A stretch of DNA of 64,000 bases from Agromyces allii. Its GTDB lineage: Bacteria > Actinomycetota > Actinomycetes > Actinomycetales > Microbacteriaceae. A program made the position numbers and the translations under genes. Positions 27,730 through 43,560 of this stretch are shown one piece after another; position 1 is the stretch's first letter; every line of letters begins with the position of its first letter. Below the pieces are notes generated by a model. That model did not search any database, had not been told where the DNA came from, and saw only the letters and a program-made list of their open reading frames with translations. The DNA lies in the NCBI RefSeq assembly GCF_009749385.1, contig NZ_WBIN01000018.1, forward strand, positions 1 to 64,000, given 5' to 3'.

Positions 27730-28824
27730 TCAGTCGCCGTGGTTGTCGGCCTCGACGAGGTACCGCAGCGCGAGCGGGGAGACGTCGCGCCGCGAGTTGA
27801 CGAGCACGATCGACGCGATGCCGGCGTCGCGGTCGATCAGCAGATCGCTGCGGAATCCCTCGGTCGTTCCGGCGTGCTCGGTGAGGGTGCGAGGGCGCTT
27901 CTCGAGGATCCACCAGAAGTAGCCGAGCTGCTCGAAGCGGTTGGTGCCGGGCGCGATCGGCACCAGTGCGGCGCTGTCGCTGAGCGGCCCGTCGAGCACG
28001 GCCTCGGCCAGCGCGATGAGGTCGGGCAGCGTCGCCTGCGCCATCCCGGCCGGCGCGAACCCCTCGCCCCACCACGGATCGACCGGATCCCCTGGCACGT
28101 CGTACCCTCCGGCGTGCCCGGCGGGAACCTGTTCCGGGGTCTCCACGACCACGGTGCCGACCATGCCGAGGGGCTCGAGGACGCGCCCCTCGAGCAACGT
28201 GGCGTAGTCGGTGCCTGCCGCGGCCGCCAGCGCGTGGCCGAGCAGAGCAGCTCCGAGATTGCTGTACTCGAAGTCCGGCGACGGCGCGACGGGTTCGGCG
28301 CGCGCGAAGGCGAGCAACTCGTCGAGCGTCGCGTCGTACGGGTTGCCACCCGCCTCGTACTCGGCCGCGAAGGCGGGACCGGTCGGCTCGAACGGCAGGC
28401 CGCTCCGATGCGTCGCCAGAGACCGGAGCGTGACGGATGCCGCGGGCGCGTCGCCGAGCGGCAGATAGGCGCCGAGCGGATCGTCGAGCCCGACCTCGCC
28501 CCGCTCGATCGCGATGGCGAGGAGCTCGCCGGTCAGCACCTTCGTGATCGAGCCGATCTCGTAGACGGTGTGCTCGTCGGCGCGTTGGTAGACGGTCGTC
28601 ACCTCGCCGTCCTCGATCACGGCGACTGCGGCGCGCTCGTAGTCGTTGTAGAAGGCGTTCCGCACGTCGCGTTCGAGGGCCGTCTCGGTCGCGTTCGGCG
28701 TCGCGTCGACGGGCGTCGGGGCGTCCTCCGCGACGCATGCGCTGAACGAGACCGCGATCAGGCCCGCGAGGAGGGCTGCGATGGCCTTCCGGGCGCCTCG
28801 GGACGACACCTGCCGCGGGGGCAT
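27730..28824 (-). CDS. serine hydrolase lipoprotein, beta-lactamase/DD-peptidase fold
   Basis: A 364-residue lipoprotein with lipobox FSAC (Cys30). The class C beta-lactamase fold motifs are present: SxxK as SITK in VYEIGSITKVLTGELLA, YxN as YSN in FEYSNLGAALLGHALA, and HxG in EHAGTTEGF. Such proteins act on D-alanyl peptides, esters or beta-lactams outside the cell. The substrate is unknown. A paralogue with the same layout lies at 42424. It converges on trhO, with a palindromic element in the gap. The ATG is at 28824. Confidence 0.88.
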   Translation of the reverse strand: MPPRQVSSRGARKAIAALLAGLIAVSFSACVAEDAPTPVDATPNATETALERDVRNAFYNDYERAAVAVIEDGEVTTVYQRADEHTVYEIGSITKVLTGELLAIAIERGEVGLDDPLGAYLPLGDAPAASVTLRSLATHRSGLPFEPTGPAFAAEYEAGGNPYDATLDELLAFARAEPVAPSPDFEYSNLGAALLGHALAAAAGTDYATLLEGRVLEPLGMVGTVVVETPEQVPAGHAGGYDVPGDPVDPWWGEGFAPAGMAQATLPDLIALAEAVLDGPLSDSAALVPIAPGTNRFEQLGYFWWILEKRPRTLTEHAGTTEGFRSDLLIDRDAGIASIVLVNSRRDVSPLALRYLVEADNHGD

Positions 28825-31103: not shown

Positions 31104-32558
31104 TCAGGCCGGGCGGAACCCCGTGGTCTCGGGCGGCGCCGCGTGCCGGATCATGAGGTGCCGGGTGACCGAGTAGTCGAGCAGCGGCTCCATCGACATG
31201 TCCTTGCCGAAGCCGGACCCCTTCACTCCGCCGTGCGGTGCCTCGGAGGCGATCGGCAGGTGGTCGTTGACCCAGGTGACCCCGACGTCGAGCGACTGGC
31301 TCACGCGAAGTGCGCGCGAGACATCCGAGGTCCAGACCGACGACGCGAGGCCGTAGGCGTTGTCGTTCGCGAGGGCGATGCCCTCGGCCTCGCCGTCGAA
31401 GGGCAGCACGACGAGCACGGGCCCGAAGACCTCGCCCTGCACGATCTCGGACGACTGCGCGGCCCCGACGAGCAGGGTCGGCGCGAAGTACGAGCCGACG
31501 CGGTCGATGGCGTGGCCGCCGACGAGCGCCTCGGCGCCCTCGGCCACGGCGCGGGCGACGAAGCCCTCGACGCGCTCGCGGTGGCCGCGCGAGATGAGCG
31601 GGCCGATGTGCGTCTCGGCGTCCATGGGGTCGCCGGCCTTGATCTGCGAGATGGCGTGGCGGAGGGCGGCGACGCCGTCGTCGTAGACCGAGCGCTCGAG
31701 GTAGACGCGGGTCGCCGCGGTGCAGTCCTGGCCGGTGTTGTAGGTCGCGCCGAGCGCGACGGCGTGCGCCATGGCGCCGAGGTCGGCATCTCTGAAGACG
31801 ATGACGGGCGCCTTGCCGCCGAGCTCGAGGTGCACGCGCTTGACGCCCTCGACGGCGCCGCGCATGACGGCCTTGCCGGTCTGGGTCGACCCGGTGACGC
31901 TCACCATGTCGACCTCCTTGTGGGTCACGAGCGCCTGACCGACCTCGGCGTCGCCCGTCACCACGTTGAAGAGGCCCGCGGGCAGTCCGGCCTCGAGTGC
32001 GAGCTCGGCGAACCGCAGCGTGGTGCGCGGCGTCGCGGGGGCGGGCTTCACGATGACGGCGTTGCCCGCGGCGAGCGCGGGTCCGGCCTTCCAGATCGCC
32101 ATGATGAGTGGGAAGTTCCACGGCGTGATGCCGGCCACGACACCGACCGGGCGGCGCGTGAGGATCGACGTGTAGCCGTTCGAGAACGAGCCGGCGCCCG
32201 TGCCGTCGAGCGAGCGGGCGGCGCCGGCGAAGAAGCGCAGGTTGTCGACGCCGAAGGGCAGCTCGCCGTCGAACGCGGTGGTCCATGGCTTGCCGGAGTC
32301 CTCGACCTCGAGGCGCGCGAGGTTCTCGGCGTCGGCCTCGAGCGCGTCCGCGAGCTTGAGCAGCGCGAGCGAGCGCTCCCCCGGCGTCTTCGCGGCCCAC
32401 TCGGGCTGCGCCGCACGCGCGGCCGCGGCCGCCTCGTCGACGTCGGCGACGCCCGAGGTCGTGAAGGCCGCGACCTCCTGCTCGGTCGCCGGGTTCGTGA
32501 TGACGGCGTCGCCGCCCGAGCCGGCGCGGTACTCGCCGATGAAGGTGCCGGTGGTCAT
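31104..32558 (-). CDS. aldehyde dehydrogenase, gamma-aminobutyraldehyde type (PatD/PuuC-like)
   Basis: A 484-residue NAD(P)-dependent aldehyde dehydrogenase. Motifs seen are ITPWNFPLIMAIWKAGPALA, the nucleotide-binding SVTGSTQTGKAVM, the catalytic Glu in HLELGGKAPVIVF, and the catalytic Cys in NTGQDCTAATR. The best match in pattern is the gamma-aminobutyraldehyde / aminoaldehyde group. It should oxidise the aldehyde made by the neighbouring amine oxidase. It is the last gene of the GT1 / oxidase / dehydrogenase operon, 107 bp after the oxidase stop. The ATG is at 32558, preceded by AAAGGACG. Confidence 0.92.
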   Translation of the reverse strand: MTTGTFIGEYRAGSGGDAVITNPATEQEVAAFTTSGVADVDEAAAAARAAQPEWAAKTPGERSLALLKLADALEADAENLARLEVEDSGKPWTTAFDGELPFGVDNLRFFAGAARSLDGTGAGSFSNGYTSILTRRPVGVVAGITPWNFPLIMAIWKAGPALAAGNAVIVKPAPATPRTTLRFAELALEAGLPAGLFNVVTGDAEVGQALVTHKEVDMVSVTGSTQTGKAVMRGAVEGVKRVHLELGGKAPVIVFRDADLGAMAHAVALGATYNTGQDCTAATRVYLERSVYDDGVAALRHAISQIKAGDPMDAETHIGPLISRGHRERVEGFVARAVAEGAEALVGGHAIDRVGSYFAPTLLVGAAQSSEIVQGEVFGPVLVVLPFDGEAEGIALANDNAYGLASSVWTSDVSRALRVSQSLDVGVTWVNDHLPIASEAPHGGVKGSGFGKDMSMEPLLDYSVTRHLMIRHAAPPETTGFRPA

Positions 32559-32665
32559 GAGGTGCGTCCTTTCAGGTGACGGATGCCGCGTCACGGTGTT
32601 GCTGGGTCGAGGGGCGTTCGCCGGGTCGGCGGGGTCGGGGTGCGAGCCGGGATCGGTGGCGCGGG

Positions 32666-34084
32666 CTACGAGTTGAAGCCGAGGCCGAAGCGGTCGAGGG
32701 TGCGCAACCACAGGTTGCGTCGGCCCTCGTGCGCGTCGGCGCTGAGGATCGAGTGGCGGGTGAACTGGATGATGGGGTTGCGGAACGGTTCGGGCGGCAC
32801 GGGGAACGGCCGCTTGCGCACGATGTCGTACCGCAGCCGCGACGTGGGTTCGCCGGCCAGCAGGTCGAGTGCGACATCCGCCGAGAACCTCGACGCGCCG
32901 ACCCCGAGGCCCGTGTGCCCGACCGCGTAGGCCACCCGTCCGCCGAGCGCCGTGCCGTAGGCGGCCGTGAACCTCGTGGTCGAGTCGATCGGGCCGGCCC
33001 AGCGGTTCGTGAAGCGCAGGCCCGCGAGCTGCGGGAAGGTCTCGAAGAAGTGCCGGGCGAGCAGCTCGTGCGAGCTGTCGCGCTGCTCCAGGCTCGCGTC
33101 GACCCTGCCGCCGAAGTAGTAGACGGCGTCCCATCCGCCGAAGAGGATGCGCCCGTCGGCGGTGGGCCGGTAGTAGTGGAACTGGTTGCCCGCGTCGGTG
33201 AGCCCCTGGCCCTCGCCCCAGCCGATCGATGCGCGCTGCGCGTCGGTGAGCGGCTCGGTCATGAGCACGTGGTCGTAGAGCGGCATGATGTAGTTCCCGA
33301 GCCGCTTGAGCGGAGCGGGGTAGGCCGCGGTCGCGATCACGGCCTCGCGCGCGTCGACCCGGCCGTTCGCCGTCGACACGCGCACCCCGACGCCGTTGCG
33401 CGCGAGCGAGGTGGCGGCGGATGCCTCGAACACCCGCACCCCCCGGCGCTCGAGTTCGGCGGCCATGCCCCAGGCGAGCTTCGCGGGGTCGACGAGCACG
33501 GTGCCGGTGCGGTCGCGGAGCCCGCCGAGGTAGGTCGGCGAGTGCACGTCGGCCTGCACCTCGTCGCGCGTCAGCAGTTCGAGGTCGACGCCGTACTTCG
33601 CGCCGAGGGCCTGCGCGTCGCGGAGCCCCTCGACCTGCCACGGCTCGATCGCGAGCGTGGTCTTGCCGGCACGTCGCAGGTCGCAGTCGATGCCGGCGCC
33701 CTCGATCGCGGCGATGAGCCCGGCGAGGTTGCGGTCGCCCTCCTCGTGCATCGCGGCGACCTGCTTCGGCCAGATCGCCTCGCCGTGGGTGAGGCCGTGC
33801 GTGAGCGACGCGGCGACGAACCCGCCGTTGCGCCCCGTCGCGCCGTGCGCGATGCGCTCGGCCTCGAGGATCACGACCGATCGACCCGGCTCGCGCTCGG
33901 TCGCCTGCCACGCGGTCCAGAGTCCGGTGAAGCCTCCGCCGACGATGACGAGATCGGCCTCGAGGGGGCCCTCGACACGCGGGCGCCCGGGCGGGGCTGC
34001 TGCGCGGTCGAGCCAGTAGGCGGTGGGCGATGCATCGCGCAGCGCCTCGGCCGCGGCATCCGTCGCCGACTGCGTGGTGGTCAC
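32666..34084 (-). CDS. FAD-dependent amine oxidoreductase (PuuB/DAO family)
   Basis: A 472-residue flavoprotein of the D-amino-acid-oxidase-like family. Residues 40-85 have the FAD motif ADLVIVGGGFTGLWTAWQAT and then GATGRNGGFVAASLTHG, which is typical of PuuB (gamma-glutamylputrescine oxidase) relatives. The C-terminal YAVGHTGLGVGASRFSADVALDLLAG closes the FAD site. It should oxidise a primary or secondary amine carbon to an imine/aldehyde. A GTG start at 34084 overlaps the glycosyltransferase stop by four bases (GTGA), so translation is coupled. Amadoriases and sarcosine oxidases belong to the same superfamily and cannot be excluded. Confidence 0.88.
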   Translation of the reverse strand: MTTTQSATDAAAEALRDASPTAYWLDRAAAPPGRPRVEGPLEADLVIVGGGFTGLWTAWQATEREPGRSVVILEAERIAHGATGRNGGFVAASLTHGLTHGEAIWPKQVAAMHEEGDRNLAGLIAAIEGAGIDCDLRRAGKTTLAIEPWQVEGLRDAQALGAKYGVDLELLTRDEVQADVHSPTYLGGLRDRTGTVLVDPAKLAWGMAAELERRGVRVFEASAATSLARNGVGVRVSTANGRVDAREAVIATAAYPAPLKRLGNYIMPLYDHVLMTEPLTDAQRASIGWGEGQGLTDAGNQFHYYRPTADGRILFGGWDAVYYFGGRVDASLEQRDSSHELLARHFFETFPQLAGLRFTNRWAGPIDSTTRFTAAYGTALGGRVAYAVGHTGLGVGASRFSADVALDLLAGEPTSRLRYDIVRKRPFPVPPEPFRNPIIQFTRHSILSADAHEGRRNLWLRTLDRFGLGFNS

Positions 34085-35451
34085 ACTCGCTCCCGTGCGT
34101 CGGTGCCGACCCCGGCACCGACTCGAGCACCCACGCGCTCGATGGCGTCGGCGGCGGCCGAGACCCCGTCCTTCGAGCGGATGTCGGCGCCGACGGCGGC
34201 GATGCGCTCGCGCAGGTCGGTGTCGGCGAGCAGCCCGGTCACGGCGCCCTGCAGTTCTTCGGCGGTGAAGCCGTAGGTGCTGAGGCGGATGCCGTAGCCC
34301 TGCTCGTGCACGCGCTGCGCGTTGTCGTACTGGTCCCAGAAGAGGGGCAGGAGGATCATCGGCTTGCCGAAGTGCAGCGCCTCGGTCGTGGTGTTGTTGC
34401 CGCCGTGCGTGATGACGAGGTCGACGAGCGGGAGGATCTTCGTCTGCGGCAGGAACTCGGCGCCCCACATGTTGTCGGCGAGCTCGAACTCGTCGTGCAG
34501 CGGCCCCTTCGAGACGATGACGTTGACGGGCAGGTCGGCGAGCACCGAGATGACGCGCTTCATGAGGTCGACGTCGGCCGAGCCGAGCGAGCCGAGGCTG
34601 AAGTAGACGAGCGGGCGGCTGCCGTCGGTGAACGATGCGGGCAGGTCGGCCGGCGCCTGCTCGGTCTCGCGCACCGAGGAGTCGAGGCGGGTCCAGCTCT
34701 CGTCGAGCGGGCGTTCGGCGGTGTAGTCGAGCACCTCGGGGTACACGTAGAGGTTCGCGTCGCCCGTGTGGATGAACTCGAGGTCGGGCAGCGCGGGCGC
34801 GCCCTGCTCCTGCACCCAGGCGTTGTACGACTCCCAGAGGGGGCGGTGGGTGCGCTCGTACTCCGCGCGGAACTCCGCCCAGCCCTCGCGATCGTCCTTG
34901 CCGAGGCCCGAGAAGACCGGCGCGATGCCGTCGCCCGGAACCTCGAGCGGGTTGCAGCTCGTGATGCGCACGAAGGGCACGCCCGCGGTGACGAGCGCCG
35001 GGAACGCGATGACGTTGTCCTCGATGATGACGTCGGGCCGCACGCGCCCGATGATCGCCTTCAGCTGCGGCTCGCAGAACTTCGCGCCGTTCGCGAGCTC
35101 CTCCCAGATGGGCAGCGTCACGGTCTCGAGCTGCTCGGCCGTGCTCTTGCGGAACTCGGGCGAGATGGACTGGATGTACTCCTTCCAGAACGAGCCGGCG
35201 TCCTGCTCGGCGTCGGCGTCGGCGGTCCCCTCGGCTCCCTCGGCGGGCTCGGCCGGCTCCGCGACCGGTGCGAGGTCGACGAGGTCCTCCTCGAAGCCCA
35301 GCGCGACGAGCTTGCCCTGCCACGAACGCTCGGCGGCGAAGACGACGCGGTGACCGCGCTTGAGCAGTTCGTTGCCGATTCCGATGCAGTTGTTCGTCGG
35401 GCCGTACGCGCTCTCGGGCATGAAGAGGTAGGTGCGGCGTTCCTCGGTCAT
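34081..35451 (-). CDS. GT1-family glycosyltransferase (UGT/MGT-like)
   Basis: A 456-residue GT-B fold enzyme. The N-terminal acceptor domain begins YLFMPESAYGPTNNCIGIGNEL. The donor domain has PLVYFSLGSLGSADVDLM and the nucleotide-sugar signature LVITHGGNNTTTEALHFGKP followed by LPLFWDQYDNAQRV. Such enzymes use UDP- or dTDP-sugars on small lipophilic or amine/alcohol acceptors, including macrolides. A GT1 gene is unexpected at the head of a polyamine-type oxidation operon. The acidic insert of Ala/Glu/Pro repeats (about 64-85) is unusual. The ATG at 35451 has a GGAG site. The acceptor is unknown. Confidence 0.88.
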   Translation of the reverse strand: MTEERRTYLFMPESAYGPTNNCIGIGNELLKRGHRVVFAAERSWQGKLVALGFEEDLVDLAPVAEPAEPAEGAEGTADADAEQDAGSFWKEYIQSISPEFRKSTAEQLETVTLPIWEELANGAKFCEPQLKAIIGRVRPDVIIEDNVIAFPALVTAGVPFVRITSCNPLEVPGDGIAPVFSGLGKDDREGWAEFRAEYERTHRPLWESYNAWVQEQGAPALPDLEFIHTGDANLYVYPEVLDYTAERPLDESWTRLDSSVRETEQAPADLPASFTDGSRPLVYFSLGSLGSADVDLMKRVISVLADLPVNVIVSKGPLHDEFELADNMWGAEFLPQTKILPLVDLVITHGGNNTTTEALHFGKPMILLPLFWDQYDNAQRVHEQGYGIRLSTYGFTAEELQGAVTGLLADTDLRERIAAVGADIRSKDGVSAAADAIERVGARVGAGVGTDARERV

Positions 35452-35477
35452 CGGGTCTCCGTTCGTGAATTTCTTGA

Positions 35478-35506
35478 ATGTTGCTCTAAAGAATCTGGTC
35501 GGTCAA
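35478..35506 (-). promoter_or_regulatory. promoter of the GT1-oxidase-dehydrogenase operon
   Basis: On the minus strand TTGACC (35506-35501) and CAACAT (35483-35478) are spaced by 17 bp, placing the start of transcription about 20 bp before the ATG at 35451. The minus-10 match is modest. The divergent TetR gene shares this 134-bp gap. Confidence 0.45.
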
Positions 35507-35585
35507 GAGTTGTGTGAAAACTGGGCTGCACACCCTAAACTTGCGCGGGGATGCAGACAATTCGTCCGCCCCGGGGAGGAACCGC

Positions 35586-36197
35586 ATGGCCAGGCCGAAG
35601 CGTCAGGAGGAACGTCGCAGCCAGCTGGTCGCGGCCGCCCAGCGTGCGATCGCGGCGCACGGACCCGACGGTGCGCGGCTGAACCGCGTGGCCGAAGAGG
35701 CGGGCCTCACCTCCGGCGCGGTGCTGTACTACTACCCCGACATCGACGAGCTCATGTTCGAGGCCAACCGCGCCGGCATGGAGCGCTTCTACGAGGGCCG
35801 CGTGCGCATGCTCGAGGGCCTGCCCGACGACCCGGTGGTGCGGCTGCTCGCGCTCGCGAAGTCGGGCCTGCCGAGCGGCCCGGGCGACACCGAGGTGCGC
35901 CTGCTCTGCGAGCTCGGTGGCTCGGCCGGCCGCAACCCGCTCATGGCGTCGCTGCTGACGACCCTCTTCGACCGCCAGGTCGGCATGTACCAGGTCGTGC
36001 TCGAGCAGGGCGCCGCGCGCGGCATCTTCGCGCTCGCGCAGCCCTCGCTCGTGATCGCCCGCAACCTCGTGGCACTCGAAGACGCGTACGGCTACCGCAT
36101 CATCGCCGAGCACCCGACGATCGACCACGCGGCAGCCCTCGAGCTGATCGTGGCCAACGCGAGGCTCGCGACGGGTCATGCGCTGACCGCCTCCTGA
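35586..36197 (+). CDS. TetR family regulator of the polyamine-type island
   Basis: A 203-residue TetR protein. The HTH occupies residues 8-55 (RRSQLVAAAQRAIAAHG, LNRVAEEAGLTSGAVLYYYPDIDELM), and the C-terminal domain resembles BetI-type regulators of choline or amine uptake. It sits between the GT1-oxidase-ALDH operon (divergent) and the importer operon (convergent; the last 22 bp overlap potA). GGAGGA lies five bases before the ATG at 35586; an upstream in-frame ATG at 35514 lacks this. It probably represses the divergent catabolic operon. Confidence 0.88.
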   Translation: MARPKRQEERRSQLVAAAQRAIAAHGPDGARLNRVAEEAGLTSGAVLYYYPDIDELMFEANRAGMERFYEGRVRMLEGLPDDPVVRLLALAKSGLPSGPGDTEVRLLCELGGSAGRNPLMASLLTTLFDRQVGMYQVVLEQGAARGIFALAQPSLVIARNLVALEDAYGYRIIAEHPTIDHAAALELIVANARLATGHALTAS

Positions 36198-37261
36198 GCG
36201 GATGCCGCGGCGCCGGCGTCGTCGCGCGCGACCGCCGACGTGCGACCGAAGCGCACCCCGACGGCGTCGCCTCGCGCGAGCCGGCTCGCCCCGTGCACCG
36301 TCGCGAGCAACGGCGCCTCGAGGCCGGGCACCTCGACCGAGATGGTGGAGGCCCCGCCCAGGAAGTACGTGTCGATGACCGTGCCGCGCAGGCCGGTCGT
36401 CGCGGCATCCGTCAGCTCGAGGTCTTCAGGCCGGACGACCGCGGTCGCCGGTTCGCCGACGGGCAGGGCGTGCGCCGCCTCGACGACGCCGAGCCCCGGC
36501 ACGTCGACGCCGCCGACCGTGGTCGTGCCGTCGAGCAGGTTCGCCGAGCCGATGAACGAGGCGACGAACCGCGATGCGGGGTTCGCGTAGAGCTCCTGAG
36601 GGGTCGCGAGCTGCTCGAGCCGGCCGTCGCGGAGCACCGCGATGCGGTCGGCCATCGACATGGCCTCCTCCTGGTCGTGCGTGACGACCACGAACGTCAG
36701 GCCCACCTCGTGCTGCAGGCGCTTCAGCTCGAGCTGCATCGAGGCCCGCACCTGGCGGTCGAGCGCCGAGAGCGGCTCGTCGAGCAGCAGCAGGCGCGGG
36801 CGCTTCACGATCGCGCGGGCGAGCGCGACGCGCTGCCGCTGGCCGCCGGACAGCTGCGCCGGGCGACGCTTGGCGAGCTGGCCGAGCCCCACGACGTCGA
36901 CGACCTCGGCCACGCGGCGCGCGATCTCGGCGCGGCCGAGCCCCTCGGACTCGAGTCCGTAGGCGATGTTCTTCTCGACGCTCATGTGCGGGAAGAGTGC
37001 GTAGCTCTGGAACATCATGTTCACCGGGCGCTTGTGCGCCGGCATCCGGAGCAGGTCTTCGCCGTCGACCTCGATGCGGCCAGAGGCCGGCGTCTCGAAG
37101 CCGGCGATCGAGCGGAGCAGCGTCGTCTTGCCGCAGCCCGACGGGCCGAGCAGGGCGAAGAACTCGTTGTCGCCGATGTCGAGCGAGACGTCGTGCAGCG
37201 CGACCGTGTCGCCGTAGACGGCGCGCACGCCGTCGACCCTGAGCAGAGGGGCAGAGGTCAT
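36176..37261 (-). CDS. potA: spermidine/putrescine-type ABC importer ATPase
   Basis: A 361-residue ATPase of the PotA/MalK-like group. Walker A is GPSGCGKT (39-46), the signature is LSGGQRQRVALARA, Walker B is LLLLDEPLSALD, and the H-loop is VVTHDQEEAM. The C-terminal TOBE domain (about 275-350) matches PotA-type ATPases. It energises the uptake of an amine or opine-like compound. It overlaps the permease gene by four bases (ATGA) and its 3' end overlaps the TetR gene by 22 bp on the opposite strand. The symbol reflects family, not a proven substrate. Confidence 0.9.
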   Translation of the reverse strand: MTSAPLLRVDGVRAVYGDTVALHDVSLDIGDNEFFALLGPSGCGKTTLLRSIAGFETPASGRIEVDGEDLLRMPAHKRPVNMMFQSYALFPHMSVEKNIAYGLESEGLGRAEIARRVAEVVDVVGLGQLAKRRPAQLSGGQRQRVALARAIVKRPRLLLLDEPLSALDRQVRASMQLELKRLQHEVGLTFVVVTHDQEEAMSMADRIAVLRDGRLEQLATPQELYANPASRFVASFIGSANLLDGTTTVGGVDVPGLGVVEAAHALPVGEPATAVVRPEDLELTDAATTGLRGTVIDTYFLGGASTISVEVPGLEAPLLATVHGASRLARGDAVGVRFGRTSAVARDDAGAAASAQEAVSA

Positions 37262-38127
37262 TTCGAGGATCCAGTCAGTCGGGTCAGGCGCTGCGCCGCG
37301 ATCACGGTCACGACGCTCACGAACAGGAGCAGGGTGGCGAGGGCGTTGACCTCGGGGGTCACCCCGAAGCGCACCATCGAGTAGATGACGATCGGCAGCG
37401 TCGGCTGGGTGGGCGCCGTCGTGAAGAACGCGATGACGAACTCGTCGAGCGAGAGCGTGAACGCGAGCAGCGCGCCCGCGACGATGCCCGGCGCGAGCTG
37501 CGGCAGCGTGACCCGCACGAACGTGCGCACCGGCCCGGCGCCGAGGTCCCGCGAGGCCTCCTCGAGGCTCGGGTCGAGGCTCGCCATGCGCGCGAGCACG
37601 ATCGCGGTCACGAACGCCGTCGCGAACACCCCGTGCGCGAGGATCACCGAGTGCAGCCCGAGCGTGATGCCGAGCAGCGAGAACAGCGTCAGCAGTCCGA
37701 TGCCGAGGAGCAGGTCGGGCAGGATCGCCGGGGCGATCGCGAACGCCCGCACGAACCCGCCGCGCGTGTAGTGCTGGATGCCGTACGCCAGCAGCGTGCC
37801 GAGCACGGTCGCGATCGCGGTCGCCCCCGTCGCGACGATGAGCGTGTTGCCGAGGCCCTGCATGAGCGCGCCGTCGGCGAACACCTCGGGGTACCAGCGC
37901 AGCGAGAAGCCCCGCCAGACGAACAGGTTCTCGGAGTCGTTGAAGCTCATGATCACGACGATGAGGATCGGCAGGTAGAGGAACACGTAGCCGAGCCAGA
38001 GCGGAACGAGGATGCCGCGGGGCCTGCGCACCGCACGCGGCTTCGCCGAGGGCTCGAGCTCGCGCATGGCGGTCGTGGTGGGATTCGCGGATGCCGCGAC
38101 ATCCGTTCGGGCGATCGGTTCAGCCAC
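37258..38127 (-). CDS. potC: ABC importer permease, PotC type
   Basis: A 289-residue permease with six membrane segments after a polar N-terminus. The EAA-like loop is SLEEASRDLGAGPVRTFVRVTLPQL, which contacts the ATPase. LSLDEFVIAFFTTAPTQPTLPI near the C-terminus is characteristic of PotC/YdcV permeases. A GTG start at 38127 has AAGGA seven bases upstream and overlaps the potB stop by eight bases. The longer GTG at 38148 lacks a ribosome site. It forms half of the membrane channel. Confidence 0.88.
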   Translation of the reverse strand: MAEPIARTDVAASANPTTTAMRELEPSAKPRAVRRPRGILVPLWLGYVFLYLPILIVVIMSFNDSENLFVWRGFSLRWYPEVFADGALMQGLGNTLIVATGATAIATVLGTLLAYGIQHYTRGGFVRAFAIAPAILPDLLLGIGLLTLFSLLGITLGLHSVILAHGVFATAFVTAIVLARMASLDPSLEEASRDLGAGPVRTFVRVTLPQLAPGIVAGALLAFTLSLDEFVIAFFTTAPTQPTLPIVIYSMVRFGVTPEVNALATLLLFVSVVTVIAAQRLTRLTGSSK

Positions 38128-39022
38128 GGCGGGGTCCTTCCGTGACACGGCGCGAGACCGCGGACTGCAGCACGATGACGAGCACGAGGATGATCGTCAG
38201 CAGCAGCGCGAGCGTCGCCCCGAAGGGCCAGTCGCGCGCCTCGAAGAACTGGTCGCGCACGAGGTTGCCGACCATGACCGTCTTGCCGCCGCCGATGAGC
38301 TCCGGGATGACGAAGTTCGACATCGCCGGAACGAAGACGAAGACGCAGCCCGTCAGCGCGCCGGGCAGTGAGAGCGGCAGGGTGACCGTGCGGAACGCGC
38401 GCCACGGGTTCGCACCGAGGTTCGTGGCCGCCTCGCGGAGCGACGGGTCGAGCTGCTGCAGCGACGCGTAGAGCGGCAGCACCATGAGCGGCAGGTACAT
38501 GTAGAGCAGGCCGACGACGATCGCCTGCGGCGTGTAGAGCATGCTGATCGGCTCGTCGGTGAGGCCGAGACCCTGCAGGGCCTGGTTCAGCCAGCCGGCG
38601 TTGTTCAGCAGCAGGATCCACGCGTAGGTGCGCACGAGGAAGTTCGTCCAGAACGGGAGCACCACGGCGATGAGCGCGATCGTGCGCCACTTCGGCGAGA
38701 GCCCGGCGATCGCGTAGGCCATCGGGTAGCCGATGGCGAGCGCGAGCAGCGTGACGACGAGCGCCATGCCGATCGACTGCACGATGACGCCGAGGTAGAG
38801 CGGCTCGAGCAGCTTGATCCAGTTGTCGAACGTGAACTCGAACACGAGGCCGCCGAAGCGACCCCGCTTGAAGAAGGTGTAGAACGCGAGCAGCCCCACC
38901 GGGATCGCCATGAAGACGATGAGGAAGAGCATCCCGGGTGCGAGGAACGGAACGGGGGCGAGCCCCCGGCGCACGCGGTTCGCGCGCACGCCGGGGGTCG
39001 TCTGGTGGGGCGTCGAGGTCAC
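38120..39022 (-). CDS. potB: ABC importer permease, PotB type
   Basis: A 300-residue permease with six membrane segments. The EAA-like loop is SLREAATNLGANPWRAFRTVTLPLSLPG. PFWTNFLVRTYAWILLL and FVIPELIGGGKTVMVGNLV are the PotB/YdcU family signatures. It pairs with the PotC-type permease. The GTG at 39022 lies 20 bp after the potD stop. Confidence 0.9.
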   Translation of the reverse strand: MTSTPHQTTPGVRANRVRRGLAPVPFLAPGMLFLIVFMAIPVGLLAFYTFFKRGRFGGLVFEFTFDNWIKLLEPLYLGVIVQSIGMALVVTLLALAIGYPMAYAIAGLSPKWRTIALIAVVLPFWTNFLVRTYAWILLLNNAGWLNQALQGLGLTDEPISMLYTPQAIVVGLLYMYLPLMVLPLYASLQQLDPSLREAATNLGANPWRAFRTVTLPLSLPGALTGCVFVFVPAMSNFVIPELIGGGKTVMVGNLVRDQFFEARDWPFGATLALLLTIILVLVIVLQSAVSRRVTEGPRRG

Positions 39023-39041
39023 GGTCTCAGGGTCGCTCGCG

Positions 39042-40133
39042 TCAGTTCGTCGCCAGGACTTCGGAGTTGAGGTCGACGTACTTCAGCGAGTCCTCGCCGA
39101 GGTCGACGATGACCTCCTGGTCGAAGAGCTCGTCGACCGTGATGCCGAGCGTGGGGTACGACTCGATGAGGGCCGGGTCGAGCGCCTCCATGGCCGCCTG
39201 GTTGGGCACCTTGTAGAGGATGTTCTCGGCGACCCAGCTCTGCACCTTCGGGTCGAGGATGTAGTTGATGAAGGCCATCGCGGCCTCCTTGTTCTTCGAC
39301 GACTCGAGCACCGTCATGGTGTCGACCCAGAGGTCGGCGCCCTCGTCGGGCACGACGAACTTGATCGTCGGGTCTTCGGCGATGCCGTAGTTGCACCAGC
39401 CGTCCCACGCCTCGACCATGGCGGCCTCGCCCGAGACGAGCTTCGAGTAGAAGGTCGTGTCGTCGTAGGCGAGCAGCGTCGGCTTGGTCTTCAGGAGCTG
39501 GTCCTTCGCCTCGGCGAGCTCGCCGTCGTCGGTCGTGTTCAGCGAGTGGCCGGCCGCCTTGAGCGCGGGCATCGCGAGCCAGCGGTCGGTCGAGAGCATC
39601 GTGGTCTTGCCCTCGAGCTCGGGCTTCGGGTTCAGCAGGTCGTTCCACGACGTGGGGTCGTAGCCCGTGAGGTCGGGGCGGTAGCAGAGGCCCGTCGTGC
39701 CCCACGCGTACGGCTCGGAGTAGACGTTGCCCTCGTCGTAGTCGAGCTCGAGCGCCTCGGGGTAGAGGTTCGACTCGTTCGGGATGAGCGACTTGTCGAG
39801 CTCGGCCAGCAGGCCCTGCTCGCCGAGCGCCTGCGCGTACTGGCCCGAGACGAAGGCCACGTCGATGCCGGAGTCGGCGCTCGCGGTGAGCTTGGCGACG
39901 ATGTCCTCGTTCGTGGTGTGGTTCACGATCGTCGTCTTGACGCCGGTCGCCTCCTCGAACTGCTCGGCGAGGTCTTCGGGGTAGTAGTCCGCCCAGATCG
40001 AGACGGTGAGGGTCTGCTCGGTGATGTCGGCGGACGGGTCGACCTCGCCGCCACCGGTGGAGCACGAGGTTGCGGCGAGCGCGACGGCGATGGTGCCGGC
40101 CGCGACGGCGACGATGCGTCGTGTGGTGGGCAT
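39042..40133 (-). CDS. potD: polyamine-type substrate-binding lipoprotein
   Basis: A 363-residue periplasmic-binding-protein homologue anchored by lipobox AATSC (Cys24). The fold matches PotD/PotF: SIWADYYPEDLAEQFEEATGVK at the start, AYAWGTTGLCYRPDLTGYDPTSWNDLL, and the acidic ligand-site region EAWDGWCNYGIAEDP. It captures the substrate outside the membrane for the PotABC importer encoded downstream. AAGGAGG stands four bases before the ATG at 40133. Whether it binds putrescine, spermidine, an opine or a glycated amine cannot be told from sequence. Confidence 0.9.
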   Translation of the reverse strand: MPTTRRIVAVAAGTIAVALAATSCSTGGGEVDPSADITEQTLTVSIWADYYPEDLAEQFEEATGVKTTIVNHTTNEDIVAKLTASADSGIDVAFVSGQYAQALGEQGLLAELDKSLIPNESNLYPEALELDYDEGNVYSEPYAWGTTGLCYRPDLTGYDPTSWNDLLNPKPELEGKTTMLSTDRWLAMPALKAAGHSLNTTDDGELAEAKDQLLKTKPTLLAYDDTTFYSKLVSGEAAMVEAWDGWCNYGIAEDPTIKFVVPDEGADLWVDTMTVLESSKNKEAAMAFINYILDPKVQSWVAENILYKVPNQAAMEALDPALIESYPTLGITVDELFDQEVIVDLGEDSLKYVDLNSEVLATN

Positions 40134-40250
40134 GAGTCCTCCTTGGGGGCTGAAAAGGTTGTGCGATTGTTGCACCGGCACTGAAGAAACCGCAATGGAT
40201 GCCGGGACACACTGGCGAGGAGTTTGCACAATAGTTACAATCCGAATTCA
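40134..40250. promoter_or_regulatory. divergent control region of potD and kinase genes
   Basis: The 117-bp gap has two related AT-rich elements: GGTTGTGCGATTGTTGCACC (from 40158) and TTTGCACAATAGTTACAATC (from 40223), roughly inverted with respect to each other. A minus-10-like TACAAT (40236-40241) lies ten bases before the kinase ATG, so that transcript is probably leaderless. A common regulator for both directions is likely; none is adjacent. Confidence 0.45.
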
Positions 40251-41477
40251 ATGAACTCGTTCGAGGGCCCCCGACCGGTCGTCGACGGACACGTGCTGTC
40301 CGTCGATGGCGACGGCCGCGTGCTCGTCGACGGGCGACGCCCGCAGGCCGGCGACGGGGTGGCGCGCGCGATCGCCGCGCTCGTGCTCGACGGGCTCGCG
40401 ACCGACGGGCTCGCCGTCGATGCGCCCGAGCGAGGCATCGCCGTCGACCAGACGAACACGTCGGTCATCGTCGACGACCGGTTCGTCGTGAAGATCGTCG
40501 GGCGCTGGGCCGCGGCCGATCGCGCCGGCCACCTGCTCGAACGGCTCGCCGAGGCCGGCTCCGACGACGTGGCCCGCCTGCACGGCCGCGTCGGCTGGCG
40601 GCACCCCGAGCTCGGCGAGTCGACGCTCGCGATCGTCACCGAGTACCTGCCCGGTGCTGAAGACGGCTGGACGTGGGCGGTCGACGACGTGGTCGCGGCG
40701 GTCGAGGCAGAGGCCGGGTCTGCGGCGGACGGCGGGCCCGCGGGCAGCGCCGACCCGACCTGGCCTGCGACGCTCGGCACGAAGGTCGCGCGCATCCACG
40801 ACGTGCTCGGCGCCGAATCGACACCCAGCGGGGCGGATGCCGCATCCGCACGCCGCGACCGCGCCGCCGATGCGCTGGCCCGAGCCGTGGCCGCGGGCGA
40901 CGGGCCGACCGGGGTGCGGCTGCGCAACCGCCGCGAGGCGCTCGCGCGCGACATCCGCTCGCTCGAAGCCACCTCGCCGGGGATCGAGTTCCCCATCCAC
41001 GGCGACCTGCACCTCGGGCAGGTGCTCGTGTCGCCCGACGCCGACGCGCCCGACGGACGGCGCTACACCGTCATCGACTTCGACGGCGACCCGCAGCTCG
41101 ACGCCGCCGATCGCGAGCGAGCGGATGCCGCGGCTCGCGACGTCGCCCACCTGCTCGTCTCGCTCGACCTCGTCGCCGCGGTCGCGCAGAAGCGTCTGCG
41201 CCGCGCCGACGACCGGGCGTGGAGCTGGGCCGACCGCGCACGCGCCGACCTGCTCGCGGCCTACCGCGCCGAGCTGACGCGCACCGACCTCTTCGACCCC
41301 GCGCTGCTGCCCGGCTTCGAGGCCGAGCAGCTCGCCGCCGAGCTGCACTACGCCGACCGCTTCCTGCCGCCGTGGCGCTACGCGCCCGACGCCGCGATCA
41401 CGCACCGCTACGCTTCGACGAACGAGACTCCGGAGAGCCCATGGACACCGCCGCCTTTCGAGCCGACCTCGACCTGA
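40251..41477 (+). CDS. APH-fold phosphotransferase (maltokinase-like N-terminus)
   Basis: A 408-residue kinase-like protein. The catalytic loop is FPIHGDLHLGQVLVS (HGD-x-H-x-x-Q) and the metal-binding segment is YTVIDFDGDP (the DFD/DxD position), as in aminoglycoside phosphotransferase and maltokinase families. The N-lobe contains the lysine-strand-like DDRFVVKIVGRW. The family includes fructosamine-3-kinases and maltokinases, so a sugar or glycated amine is a plausible substrate. It overlaps the SIS gene by 37 bp and is divergent from potD. The ATG at 40251 follows TACAAT closely and has no ribosome site, consistent with a leaderless message. Confidence 0.82.
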   Translation: MNSFEGPRPVVDGHVLSVDGDGRVLVDGRRPQAGDGVARAIAALVLDGLATDGLAVDAPERGIAVDQTNTSVIVDDRFVVKIVGRWAAADRAGHLLERLAEAGSDDVARLHGRVGWRHPELGESTLAIVTEYLPGAEDGWTWAVDDVVAAVEAEAGSAADGGPAGSADPTWPATLGTKVARIHDVLGAESTPSGADAASARRDRAADALARAVAAGDGPTGVRLRNRREALARDIRSLEATSPGIEFPIHGDLHLGQVLVSPDADAPDGRRYTVIDFDGDPQLDAADRERADAAARDVAHLLVSLDLVAAVAQKRLRRADDRAWSWADRARADLLAAYRAELTRTDLFDPALLPGFEAEQLAAELHYADRFLPPWRYAPDAAITHRYASTNETPESPWTPPPFEPTST

Positions 41478-42427
41478 TCCCCTCGACGCTCGAGCGGCTC
41501 GCCGACGCCCTCGACGACGGACTGCCCGGACTCGAACGCCTCGCGATGCTCGGCGCCGCGCGCGTGCTCGTGCTCGGCATGGGCTCGAGCCGCTACGCCG
41601 CCGACGTCGTCGCCCGGCGCTACCGCAGCGTCGGCGCGAACGTGGTCGTCGAGCTCGCGAGCGCCGAACTTCTGCCGCCCGCCGCACCCGACCTCGCCGT
41701 CGTCGCCGTCTCGGCGACCGGGGGCAGCGTCGAGGTGCTGCGCGCGGTCGAGCGCTACCGCGGCACCGGGCGGCTCGTCGCCGTCACGAACCGGCCCGAC
41801 TCCGAGCTCGGGCGCCTCGCCGACATCGTCGTGCCGCTGCTCGCCGGGGTCGAGGCCTCGGGGGTGGCCAGCCGCACGTTCCGCGCGACGTTCGCCGTGC
41901 TCGACGCGGTGCTCGAGGAACTGCTCGGCACGGCTCCCGCCCAACGCTTCGACGCCGCAGCCGTGCGCGGCGCGGCGACCGCGAACGCCGTGCTGCTGGC
42001 CATGGCCGACGACTGGATGCCGCCGCTCGCCGACCTGCTCGCCGGGCCCATGGGCACGTGGTCTCTCGCCCCGGCCGAGCGTGCGTCGAGCGCGCAGCAG
42101 TCCGCACTGATGATCCGGGAGGTGCCGCGCCGCAGCGCCTTCGCGTCGGAGACCGGCGACTGGTCGCACGTCGACGTGTACCTCACGAAGACGCAGGACT
42201 ACCGCGCGCTCGTGTTCGCCGGCTCCACGTGGGATGCGCAGGCGCTCGACTGGATGGCGCAGCGCGGCTCTCGCTTCGCCTCGATCGGACGCGAGCTGCC
42301 GGGCGCCGAACTCGTGCTGAGGTTCCCGGGCGACACCGACGACTCCGTCGCAGCACTCACCGAGCTCCTCGTCGCCGAGCTCGTCGCCGACCACTGGCTC
42401 CGCACCTCCGGCGAGGGCACGCCCTAA
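41441..42427 (+). CDS. SIS-domain sugar isomerase/deglycase-like protein
   Basis: A 328-residue protein with two SIS domains. The first begins ARVLVLGMGSSRYAADVVARRY with the SIS phosphosugar loop VVAVSATGGSVEVLRAVERY. The second lies after residue 190. The layout matches GlmS-isomerase and FrlB/AgaS-like enzymes that act on phosphorylated amino-sugars. Next to the APH-fold kinase it would act on a phosphorylated amino-sugar or glycated amine. It overlaps the kinase gene by 37 bp and its stop overlaps that of the convergent serine hydrolase. The ATG at 41441 has a GGAGAG site. Confidence 0.85.
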   Translation: MDTAAFRADLDLIPSTLERLADALDDGLPGLERLAMLGAARVLVLGMGSSRYAADVVARRYRSVGANVVVELASAELLPPAAPDLAVVAVSATGGSVEVLRAVERYRGTGRLVAVTNRPDSELGRLADIVVPLLAGVEASGVASRTFRATFAVLDAVLEELLGTAPAQRFDAAAVRGAATANAVLLAMADDWMPPLADLLAGPMGTWSLAPAERASSAQQSALMIREVPRRSAFASETGDWSHVDVYLTKTQDYRALVFAGSTWDAQALDWMAQRGSRFASIGRELPGAELVLRFPGDTDDSVAALTELLVAELVADHWLRTSGEGTP

Positions 42428-43551
42428 CGCCCCGCGACGGCGATCAAGGTCTCGGCGACTCCCTCGAGCCCCATGTTGCGGTTCACGAGCACGATCGAGG
42501 CGGTGCCCGCCGTGGTGTCGACGAAGAGCATGCTCGCGAAGCCGTTCGTCATGCCGCCGTGCTCGACGACGGCGTGGCCGCCCACCTGCTGCAGGCCCCA
42601 GAAGTAGCCGGTGTCTGCGACCTCGCCGTGCGCCTGCTGGGCGGCGCTGCCGGTGAGCGGTCCGTCGATCACCGCTTCCGCGTACGCGACGAGGTCGCCG
42701 ATGGTCGCGTGGATGCCGCCCGCGGGCGCGTACGCGGCGAGCGTCGTCGGCTCGGCGGGGTCGCCCGCCTCGCCGGCACCGGCGAGGTGCCCGGTCGGCA
42801 CCTCGGCATCGACGAGCGGAAGGCTGGCGGTGTCCATGCCCAGCGGTCCGAACAGCCGGTCCTCGAGCAGGGTGCGGTAGTCGGTGCCCGCGGCCGCCGC
42901 CAGCGCCTGCCCGACGAGGGCGGCCCCGAGGTTCGAGTACTGCCGCTCGGGGGCGATCGACGACGCCGGCACCGAGCGGGCTTCGTCGAGGAGCTCGTCG
43001 AGCGTCTCGTCGATGCCGTCTGCCCCCGCCTCGTAGGCGGCGCGCAGGCGGTCGAGCCATGCCTCGTCGTGATCGGGAAACGTCGGCAGGCCCGAACTGT
43101 GGGTCACGAGGTCGGCGAGCGTCAGCGCACCGACCGGCGTGCCCGCAAGGTCGAGATGCTCGTCGAGCGTGTCGTCGAGCTCGACCTCTCCGCGTGCGAT
43201 CGCCTCGGCGACGAGCTCGCCCGTGAACGTCTTCGTGACGGAGCCGATCTCGAACACCGACGTGTCGTCGGCACCGTGGAACGCGGTGCGCACGGTGCCG
43301 TCGGCCTCGATGACGGCCGCCGCCACAGCCGGGGCCGTGCCGGCCGACGCGAAGCTCGGGCGCAGGAGCTCGGCCAGCTCGACGTCGCCCGTGTACCCGC
43401 CCGGCAGGGCCGCGGTCGAGGCGGCCTGCCCTGATGCGGCCGGGGGCGCGCACGCGGCGAGGGTCAGCACGAGGCATCCGCTCGCGACCGCCGCGGCGAC
43501 GGCGAGCACCGATCGGAGCACGGTTCGGGACGGGGCGGATGTCACGGGCAT
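42424..43551 (-). CDS. serine hydrolase lipoprotein, beta-lactamase fold (second copy)
   Basis: A 375-residue lipoprotein with lipobox LAAC (Cys35). Motifs are SVTK in FEIGSVTKTFTGELVAEAI, YSN in QYSNLGAALVGQALAAAAG, and EHGGMTNGF. The order, spacing and many residues match the gene at 27730, so the two are paralogues. It probably works on peptidoglycan-type peptides or esters at the outer membrane face. ATG 43551 is preferred to GTG 43554. Its stop codon overlaps the SIS gene stop on the other strand. Confidence 0.88.
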   Translation of the reverse strand: MPVTSAPSRTVLRSVLAVAAAVASGCLVLTLAACAPPAASGQAASTAALPGGYTGDVELAELLRPSFASAGTAPAVAAAVIEADGTVRTAFHGADDTSVFEIGSVTKTFTGELVAEAIARGEVELDDTLDEHLDLAGTPVGALTLADLVTHSSGLPTFPDHDEAWLDRLRAAYEAGADGIDETLDELLDEARSVPASSIAPERQYSNLGAALVGQALAAAAGTDYRTLLEDRLFGPLGMDTASLPLVDAEVPTGHLAGAGEAGDPAEPTTLAAYAPAGGIHATIGDLVAYAEAVIDGPLTGSAAQQAHGEVADTGYFWGLQQVGGHAVVEHGGMTNGFASMLFVDTTAGTASIVLVNRNMGLEGVAETLIAVAGR

Positions 43552-43560
43552 CACGCCAGA

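Follow-up and report, generated by a model that had tools for sequence, protein, structure and literature searches.

Gene content of the locus

We analysed a stretch of 64,000 nucleotides from Agromyces allii (contig NZ_WBIN01000018.1, positions 1 to 64,000), referred to as the window throughout, and focused on ten genes at positions 31104 to 42427. A GT1 glycosyltransferase, a kinase of the glucosamine-kinase (GlcNK) family and a two-domain SIS enzyme (together called the trio) are found here with a PotABCD-type importer, an aldehyde dehydrogenase (ALDH) of the aminoaldehyde type, a TetR regulator and a flavin adenine dinucleotide (FAD)-dependent oxidase. The genes are listed below; scores are in bits and ORF denotes an open reading frame.

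31104..32558, minus strand: ALDH of the aminobutyraldehyde dehydrogenase (PatD-like) subfamily (PF00171, 533; NF010000, 633 with a cut-off of 615)
32666..34084, minus strand: FAD-dependent DAO-family oxidoreductase, amine oxidase-like, an optional member of the locus (PF01266, 185; best NCBIfam match TIGR03329, 184 with a cut-off of 633)
34081..35451, minus strand: GT1 glycosyltransferase lacking the catalytic histidine (Pro18 instead; motif PESAYGPTN) (PF00201, 69 with a cut-off of 19.5)
35586..36197, plus strand: TetR-family regulator, divergent from the GT1 gene (PF00440; the ORF opens at 35514, the ATG at 35586 is the likelier start)
36176..37261, minus strand: PotA-type ABC ATPase (TIGR01187, 366 with a cut-off of 356)
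37258..38148, minus strand: PotC-type permease (best NCBIfam match NF007047 PotC, 229 with a cut-off of 326)
38120..39022, minus strand: PotB-type permease (best NCBIfam match NF007044 PotB, 258 with a cut-off of 348)
39042..40133, minus strand: PotD-type substrate-binding lipoprotein, its ligand pocket rebuilt (PF13416; best NCBIfam match NF007048 PotD, 154 with a cut-off of 582; the ORF opens at 40229, the probable start is at 40133)
40251..41477, plus strand: GlcNK-family kinase (NF041273, 201 with a cut-off of 550; glucosamine kinase PDB 6hwj, E = 3.3e-34; signature residues)
41441..42427, plus strand: two-domain SIS sugar-phosphate enzyme with the fold of the GlmS isomerase and glucosamine 6-phosphate (GlcN6P) deaminase, overlapping the kinase gene (PF01380; AlphaFold model with a predicted local distance difference test (pLDDT) of 94.8)

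A preliminary description of this DNA had named the ALDH, the flavoprotein, the GT1, the TetR regulator and the full set of PotA, PotC, PotB and PotD, and we found all of them, at 31104 to 40229; the flavoprotein is of the DAO type. It had left out the kinase and the SIS gene, which lie inside the region it described on the plus strand, divergent from PotD, and which alter the interpretation. The translational coupling it reported for GT1 and oxidase is present, as the stop codon TGA of GT1 (34083-34081) and the start codon GTG of the oxidase (34084-34082) share a GTGA. The importer gene set is complete with an ATPase, two permeases and a PotD-type binding protein (Pfam and NCBIfam); PotA scores above a subfamily cut-off, and the best matches of PotB, PotC and PotD lie below the equivalog cut-offs. 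Two of the earlier names need to be narrowed. The ALDH had been called PuuC/PatD-like, and only the second half of that name agrees with the profile scores (NF007352 for PuuC: 365 with a cut-off of 850). For the flavoprotein none of 15 NCBIfam matches attains its cut-off and hence 'PuuB-like' is a statement about the DAO superfamily only.

Conservation of the unit across actinobacteria

The named loci (L numbers) are the best 80 of 548, with close relatives (Agromyces, Nonomuraea) over-represented; 12 of the 80 were at most 21.2 kb long and were excluded, which left 68 full-length named loci for the tallies. A family-level search for GT1 covered 150 genomes (genomes carry G numbers throughout). 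A class-level search for the SIS enzyme covered 394 genomes, 224 of them with any match, and gave 72 matches at 1.2e-46 or better; 62 of these 72 and the locus of G064 from the family-level search make up the 63 SIS loci. Named loci and those of the G-numbered genomes share species, and the sets of 45 and 80 GT1s used below overlap.

The trio occurred in 61 of the 68 full-length named loci, and in 49 it was accompanied by both PotABCD and the ALDH. A TetR match was present in 59 and an FAD oxidase match in 27, one of which (L172) is a 32% match about 9 kb off. All ten genes were found in 23 loci, if L172 with its weak and distant oxidase match is counted. The histidine-less GT1, the GlcNK-type kinase and the SIS enzyme thus belong to a conserved actinobacterial unit in which they are coupled to an importer of the PotABCD type and an ALDH of the aminoaldehyde type; an amine oxidase is often present as well.

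Among the 63 SIS loci the kinase adjoins the SIS gene in 50, and in these 50 the GT1 gene is at the locus in 45 cases and elsewhere in the genome in five. Four of the latter loci sit at contig ends or breaks; in G444 the GT1 match consists of two fragments at contig ends. The fifth is that of G420, where PotD and GT1 lie together on a separate contig and the main locus comprises PotABC, TetR, oxidase, ALDH, kinase and SIS. The other 13 SIS loci have no kinase or GT1 near the SIS gene; they were dropped before the count of 45 in 50, and their genomes were not searched for GT1. Their SIS enzymes are 38-41% identical to the window's copy, and three GT1-bearing loci are equally low. These 13 loci (L141, L144-L150, L153-L157) have a common neighbourhood, in which TrpB-like and TrpC-like proteins were recognised by eye. 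In eight named Acrocarpospora and Herbidospora loci a PotD-GT1 pair was found with the rest of the unit not within reach (the genomes were not searched for the remainder). Together with the pair of G420 the apart-standing pairs are L175, L177, L178, L184, L185, L188, L205, L215 and L261.

Within the 150 genomes of the family-level search, 83 contained any GT1 match. Close orthologs were restricted to the sister species G142 and to G064, which belongs to another genus; all other matches were at 1.3e-36 or weaker. Both orthologs lie within the same ten-gene locus as in the window, with the difference that the flavoprotein of G064 is divergent (31%) and comes after the ALDH. Compared with the window's copy, the cluster GT1s showed 55-74% identity in 33 relatives from different genera and 78-85% in the 12 named Agromyces loci. 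In many genera GT1 is therefore a constant member of the locus, and in some it adjoins PotD alone. That the gene might occur at this site only in this strain had been raised beforehand and is false. On the same conservation we reject the view of GT1 as strain-specific or as an antibiotic gene acquired by chance.

GT1 and the oxidase are adjacent in 6 loci including the window, 5 times with a 4-base overlap. Kinase and SIS genes abut or overlap, with a gap of at most zero, in 24 of 47 loci, and GT1 and kinase genes do so in 5 of 26. The identity matrices of the cluster genes correlate with r between 0.74 and 0.97 when the species tree is not corrected for; on the same uncorrected basis the similarity of GT1 tracks that of PotD, PotA and TetR (r = 0.80, 0.80 and 0.90). 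In a search for an operator common to the GT1 and kinase/PotD promoters, the word TTCnTTGA was enriched upstream of the kinase in 19 of 89 cases (shuffles: 2.5) and upstream of PotD in 20 of 87 (shuffles: 2.3), where kinase and PotD share a divergent region. A further word, TTGAATTC, is at most a candidate for such an operator and occurs in 16 of 101 GT1 and 13 of 89 kinase upstream regions.

The streamlined genomes G390, G516 and G407 (1.3, 1.3 and 1.8 Mb) also hold the trio with PotABCD, in fetched regions of 44-48% GC. We take genomes of this size to have little room for antibiotic clusters, and the retention of trio and importer in them therefore suggests a function in primary metabolism.

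Glycosyltransferase, sugar enzymes and binding protein

The window's GT1 has a GT-B fold with a C-terminal UDP-sugar domain, as indicated by the PF00201 score above the cut-off and by the AlphaFold model (pLDDT 88.5), whose best fold match is the mite UGT203A2 (PDB 7mco) with a template modelling (TM) score of 0.86. Spider-mite enzymes are its closest solved relatives in sequence as well, with 32% identity for UGT203A2 and 30% for UGT202A2 (PDB 6pnt) over almost the full length. This similarity hints at an origin common to the mite UGTs and the window's bacterial GT1 branch.

At the position of the catalytic histidine we observed a proline (Pro18 in the window) in 45 of 45 cluster GT1s and in 80 of 80 named loci. 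The N-terminal loop around it reads ESA[YF]GPT in all 45, and ESAYGP is present in all 80. All 45 retain the dyad partner Asp145, and Glu13 does not vary among them. In contrast, the mite UGTs carry a histidine at this position of the alignment, and so do all 27 paralogous GT1s that served as controls, which came from the family search and appear to be mostly one paralogous family. The A1 alignment took in 34 of the 45 GT1s. In published work on plant GT1s, the exchange H19Q in UGT72B1 lowered O-activity about 300-fold and only halved N-activity (PMC8558338). In the ginkgo enzyme GbNGT1 Glu15 matters for N-glucosylation: E15G abolishes the activity and E15A raises it (PMC8558338). Natural GT1s with a Cys-Asp dyad favour N-acceptors (PMC12246196). 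The base for the usual O-glycosylation is missing in the cluster GT1s, which fits glycosylation of nitrogen. By analogy with these enzymes a nitrogen acceptor is the better guess, though not proof.

The nearest NCBIfam model to the window's kinase is that of glucosamine kinase (201 bits, below the cut-off of 550). We tested 48 kinases for the GlcNK signature Q-x2-RE-x2-YA-x3-LP-x-W and the catalytic loop. The signature is present: E and Y are kept in all 48 kinases, Q and W in 47 each and R in 45, and the catalytic D and H in all 48. The window's own kinase has an alanine in place of the signature Arg408. Characterised GlcNK relatives phosphorylate glucosamine (GlcN) at O6, and SjGlcNK has a Km of about 8 mM for free GlcN (PMC6520443). 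A Km this weak leaves room for another true substrate, e.g. another amino sugar.

For the SIS enzyme the AlphaFold2 model shows a double SIS with the fold of the GlmS isomerase and the GlcN6P deaminase, and Foldseek gave TM scores of up to 0.85 against GlmS/GFAT isomerase domains. Its profile matches (GlmS, hexuloisomerase and GlcN6P deaminase models) are all below cut-off. E227 and H243, which we take by eye to be the equivalents of GlmS E488 and H504, are retained at all 45 loci with GT1. Overall E227 is present at 50 of the 63 SIS loci, and at 0 of the 13 without kinase and GT1. The window's enzyme is at most a candidate sugar-phosphate deaminase or deglycase.

E. coli PotD holds spermidine by E36, D168, E171 and D257 and an aromatic box (PMC11414716; PMC8666671; PMC4096761). 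In 27 cluster PotDs the aromatic box is retained (W79, Y82 and W275 in 27 of 27, W301 in 26). Of the four acids only D257 is kept in all 27. E171 is replaced by tryptophan and D168 by threonine in every sequence, and the E36 position is an aspartate in 5 of the 27, the window included. The alignment around E171 was ungapped with two different query PotDs. The PotDs of Listeria and of pneumococcus retain the E171 equivalent and have no D168 (by eye), so the change of E171 to tryptophan is the distinctive one. Acids were also found nearby: 14 of the 27 carry Asp or Glu at position 80, 26 of 27 do so at position 215 beside the D168 site, and all 27 have a new acid, Asp276. The pocket has thus been remodelled and not simply emptied of acids, and the ligand is perhaps not an ordinary polyamine; it may be a monoamine, a compound bearing a neutral moiety (a sugar, for instance), or still a diamine that other acids bind. 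The importer is of the PotABCD type, while a polyamine as its substrate is in doubt.

Possible functions of the unit

Our preferred though tentative reading, which we regard as a real possibility although well short of probable, is a conserved uptake-and-catabolism unit for a small nitrogen compound in which a sugar serves as a removable tag. PotABCD would bring in the compound and the histidine-less GT1 would attach a sugar from a UDP-sugar (probably glucose) to a nitrogen of it or of its product. An amine oxidase, which is FAD-dependent in the window and optional or substituted at other loci, and the aminoaldehyde-type ALDH would then turn the free end into an acid. Finally the sugar would receive a phosphate at O6 from the GlcNK-type kinase, and the SIS enzyme would free the sugar 6-phosphate and the amine product. 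Here we infer the substrate, the sugar and the sequence of reactions, and likewise that one and the same molecule is handled by GT1 and by kinase/SIS. A more specific version seems possible but doubtful: the base-less GT1 would N-glucosylate an imported amine, the other end would be oxidised, and kinase and SIS would strip off glucose 6-phosphate, to be recycled via glucose 1-phosphate to UDP-glucose. The trio of Streptacidiphilus has genes named phosphoglucomutase and UDP-glucose pyrophosphorylase as neighbours (PMC6520443), for the two steps that return released glucose 6-phosphate to UDP-glucose. A class III aminotransferase-like protein was found near 8 loci; of three examined, one was typed NF005102 and two were ornithine aminotransferases. 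Such enzymes turn amines into aldehydes, which lends slight support to an amine context.

Several observations weigh against a removable sugar tag. The FAD oxidase was not found in 41 of the 68 full-length named loci, and the correlations between the gene trees were computed without correction for the species tree. The search for an operator common to the GT1 and kinase promoters gave a mixed picture, as TTCnTTGA is no more frequent upstream of GT1 (2 of 101) than in shuffles (2.05). There are trio-only operons with unrelated neighbours (L128, L130, L132, L136, L126, L127), so the trio need not serve PotABCD and ALDH. Regarding the acceptor, His-bearing N-glucosyltransferases exist (UGT72B1, GbNGT1; PMC8558338), and Cys-dyad GT1s retain weak O-activity and lose N-activity when the cysteine is changed to alanine (PMC12246196); the loss of the histidine is therefore neither necessary nor sufficient for N-transfer. 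Furthermore GlcNK contacts the 2-amino group of GlcN (PMC6520443), a contact not to be expected with a C1-glucosylamine.

The order of a kinase followed by an SIS deglycase or deaminase is the usual one in the breakdown of fructosamines and amino sugars (FrlD/FrlB, NagB-II), and the window resembles these pathways in its kinase and two-domain SIS enzyme. It differs in that the kinase belongs to the GlcNK/maltokinase family and in that a UDP-sugar transferase is included in the unit. On this pattern the importer could take up a compound that comes with an amino sugar or an Amadori/Heyns-type sugar-amine. Kinase and SIS would split it, ALDH and oxidase would use the freed amine, and GT1 would have a secondary task, for example tagging the free amine again or detoxifying it. 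The binding protein gives this some footing, since its aromatic box and the equivalent of Asp257 are retained yet it has tryptophan for Glu171 and threonine for Asp168, and the far end of the ligand hence need not be an amine. As against that, acids stand in the pocket at position 215 and as the new Asp276, and the fixed UDP-sugar transferase and the PotD-GT1 pairs are left unexplained; we consider such import rather unlikely.

A secondary-metabolism role has been proposed for the trio itself, since in several actinobacteria GlcNK-SIS-GT1 trios fall within clusters predicted to be biosynthetic (Manso et al. 2019, PMC6520443). The three families are the same as here: a maltokinase-like GlcN kinase, an AgaS-type SIS and a GT1. 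Accordingly the trio might make or modify a secondary metabolite (GlcN6P supply, a glycosylated product or antibiotic inactivation) and merely neighbour an amine importer. The trio-only loci and the membership of GT1 in the macrolide-glycosyltransferase superfamily agree with this. We nevertheless judge it unlikely, given that trio, importer and ALDH recur as one unit in many genera, that the similarity of GT1 tracks PotD, PotA and TetR in the uncorrected comparison, and that the trio with PotABCD persists in genomes of 1.3-1.8 Mb with presumably little room for antibiotic clusters. In the parts covered, Manso et al. deal with secondary metabolism, do not use the word 'polyamine', and contain no link to PotABCD, ALDH, TetR or oxidase, no histidine loss and no streamlined genomes (PMC6520443). 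Literature searches that combined glucosamine kinase, SIS domain and polyamine returned no matching paper. Searches for glycosylated or glucosylated putrescine, spermidine or polyamine returned only barley phenolamides, goji-berry milk powder and synthetic click chemistry, and a broader search with several of these terms together had none on point by title among the matches listed. Measured against these searches and the covered parts of Manso et al., the GlcNK-SIS-GT1 trio is known, and its recurrence with PotABCD, TetR, an aminoaldehyde-type ALDH and often an amine oxidase is new.

The preliminary description had gone further and suggested that glycosylation replaces gamma-glutamylation. In the Puu pathway putrescine is masked as a gamma-glutamyl amide before oxidation. 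This pathway and the actinobacterial polyamine catabolism by GlnA2/GlnA3 (PMC8998196) have the importer, the type of flavin amine oxidase, the ALDH and the idea of a temporary mask in common with the locus. On the side of the differences, no PuuA or PuuD was found in the window's genome save a probable GlnA2, sugar enzymes are present instead, the regulator is a TetR and PotD is altered. In line with the preliminary description, which saw neither in the window, the window's contig has no match to the glutamine synthetase (GS) or PuuD families. The genome has two GS genes, both on contig C14, and a PuuA-type ligase was not found. Stand-alone PuuD was not found in it; PF07722 matched only partially, on contigs C15, C18 and C1, in frames of 528, 544 and 765 amino acids. 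The second GS scores 328 against a cut-off of 650 with the gamma-glutamylputrescine synthetase model (GGputSyn) and 440 against 429 with GlnA, and is probably GlnA2. S. coelicolor GlnA2 is a gamma-glutamylpolyamine synthetase (PMC8998196), so by analogy the second GS, if it is GlnA2, may still do the job of PuuA.

We then counted GS genes in the 28 genomes that have PotA, PotB and PotC beside kinase and SIS among the 63 SIS loci; the counts are PF00120 matches and not proven PuuA. At least three GS-family genes were present in 25 of the 28, the exceptions being G000, G456 and G407, and a loss of PuuA correlated with the cluster was not found in these counts. The sister species G142 has a third GS gene below the cut-off of the PuuA model, and none of four third copies checked attains it. 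In the streamlined G390 the third GS lies inside a separate permease-GS-ALDH set (named by eye). In G079, a member of the same genus, there are two GS genes, and a GT1 ortholog is lacking. As cluster and GS-like genes coexist, replacement fails as a pattern at the genome level. What can be said for a glycosylation of putrescine or spermidine after loss of PuuA and PuuD is that the window's genome has just two GS genes and no stand-alone PuuD, that the ALDH is of the aminobutyraldehyde type above cut-off and the importer of the PotABCD type, that PotD retains the aromatic box and several acids, and that the third GS copies checked fall below the PuuA model's cut-off. With PotD lacking Glu171 and the second GS probably of the gamma-glutamylpolyamine synthetase type, in addition to the counts and G079, we regard it as quite improbable. 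Of the masking idea itself the glycosylation part has some support, with GT1 as a fixed partner whose missing base fits nitrogen; the replacement part is unsupported. Least probable is ordinary direct amine oxidation by importer, oxidase, PatD-like ALDH and gamma-aminobutyric acid (GABA) transaminase, with GT1, kinase and SIS hitch-hiking. Two GABA-transaminase genes above cut-off are present in the genome, but GT1 is strongly conserved (the 55-74% in 33 relatives) and persists while the FAD oxidase comes and goes.

The conserved unit gives the kinase-SIS-GT1 trio, so far tentatively assigned to secondary metabolism, a likely catabolic context, and it names a conserved clade of histidine-less bacterial GT1s with a testable acceptor. 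If the tag idea were true, bacteria would protect compounds with a removable sugar group during nitrogen catabolism. The sugar-mask cycle would then be a chemically different counterpart of gamma-glutamyl masking across many actinobacterial genera, including streamlined low-GC ones.

Apart from the unit, locus L158 (G000:C22:18577-19971) has a second DAO-family oxidase (47-48% identical) with two more ALDHs (32-34%) near it, and the 20 kb fetched contain nothing that matches the importer, GT1, kinase or SIS of the window; this region is perhaps the genome's ordinary amine pathway. In the window itself two similar genes for secreted serine-hydrolase-like (beta-lactamase-like) proteins stand on either side of the locus at 27730-28824 and 42424-43554, as judged by eye from their translations.

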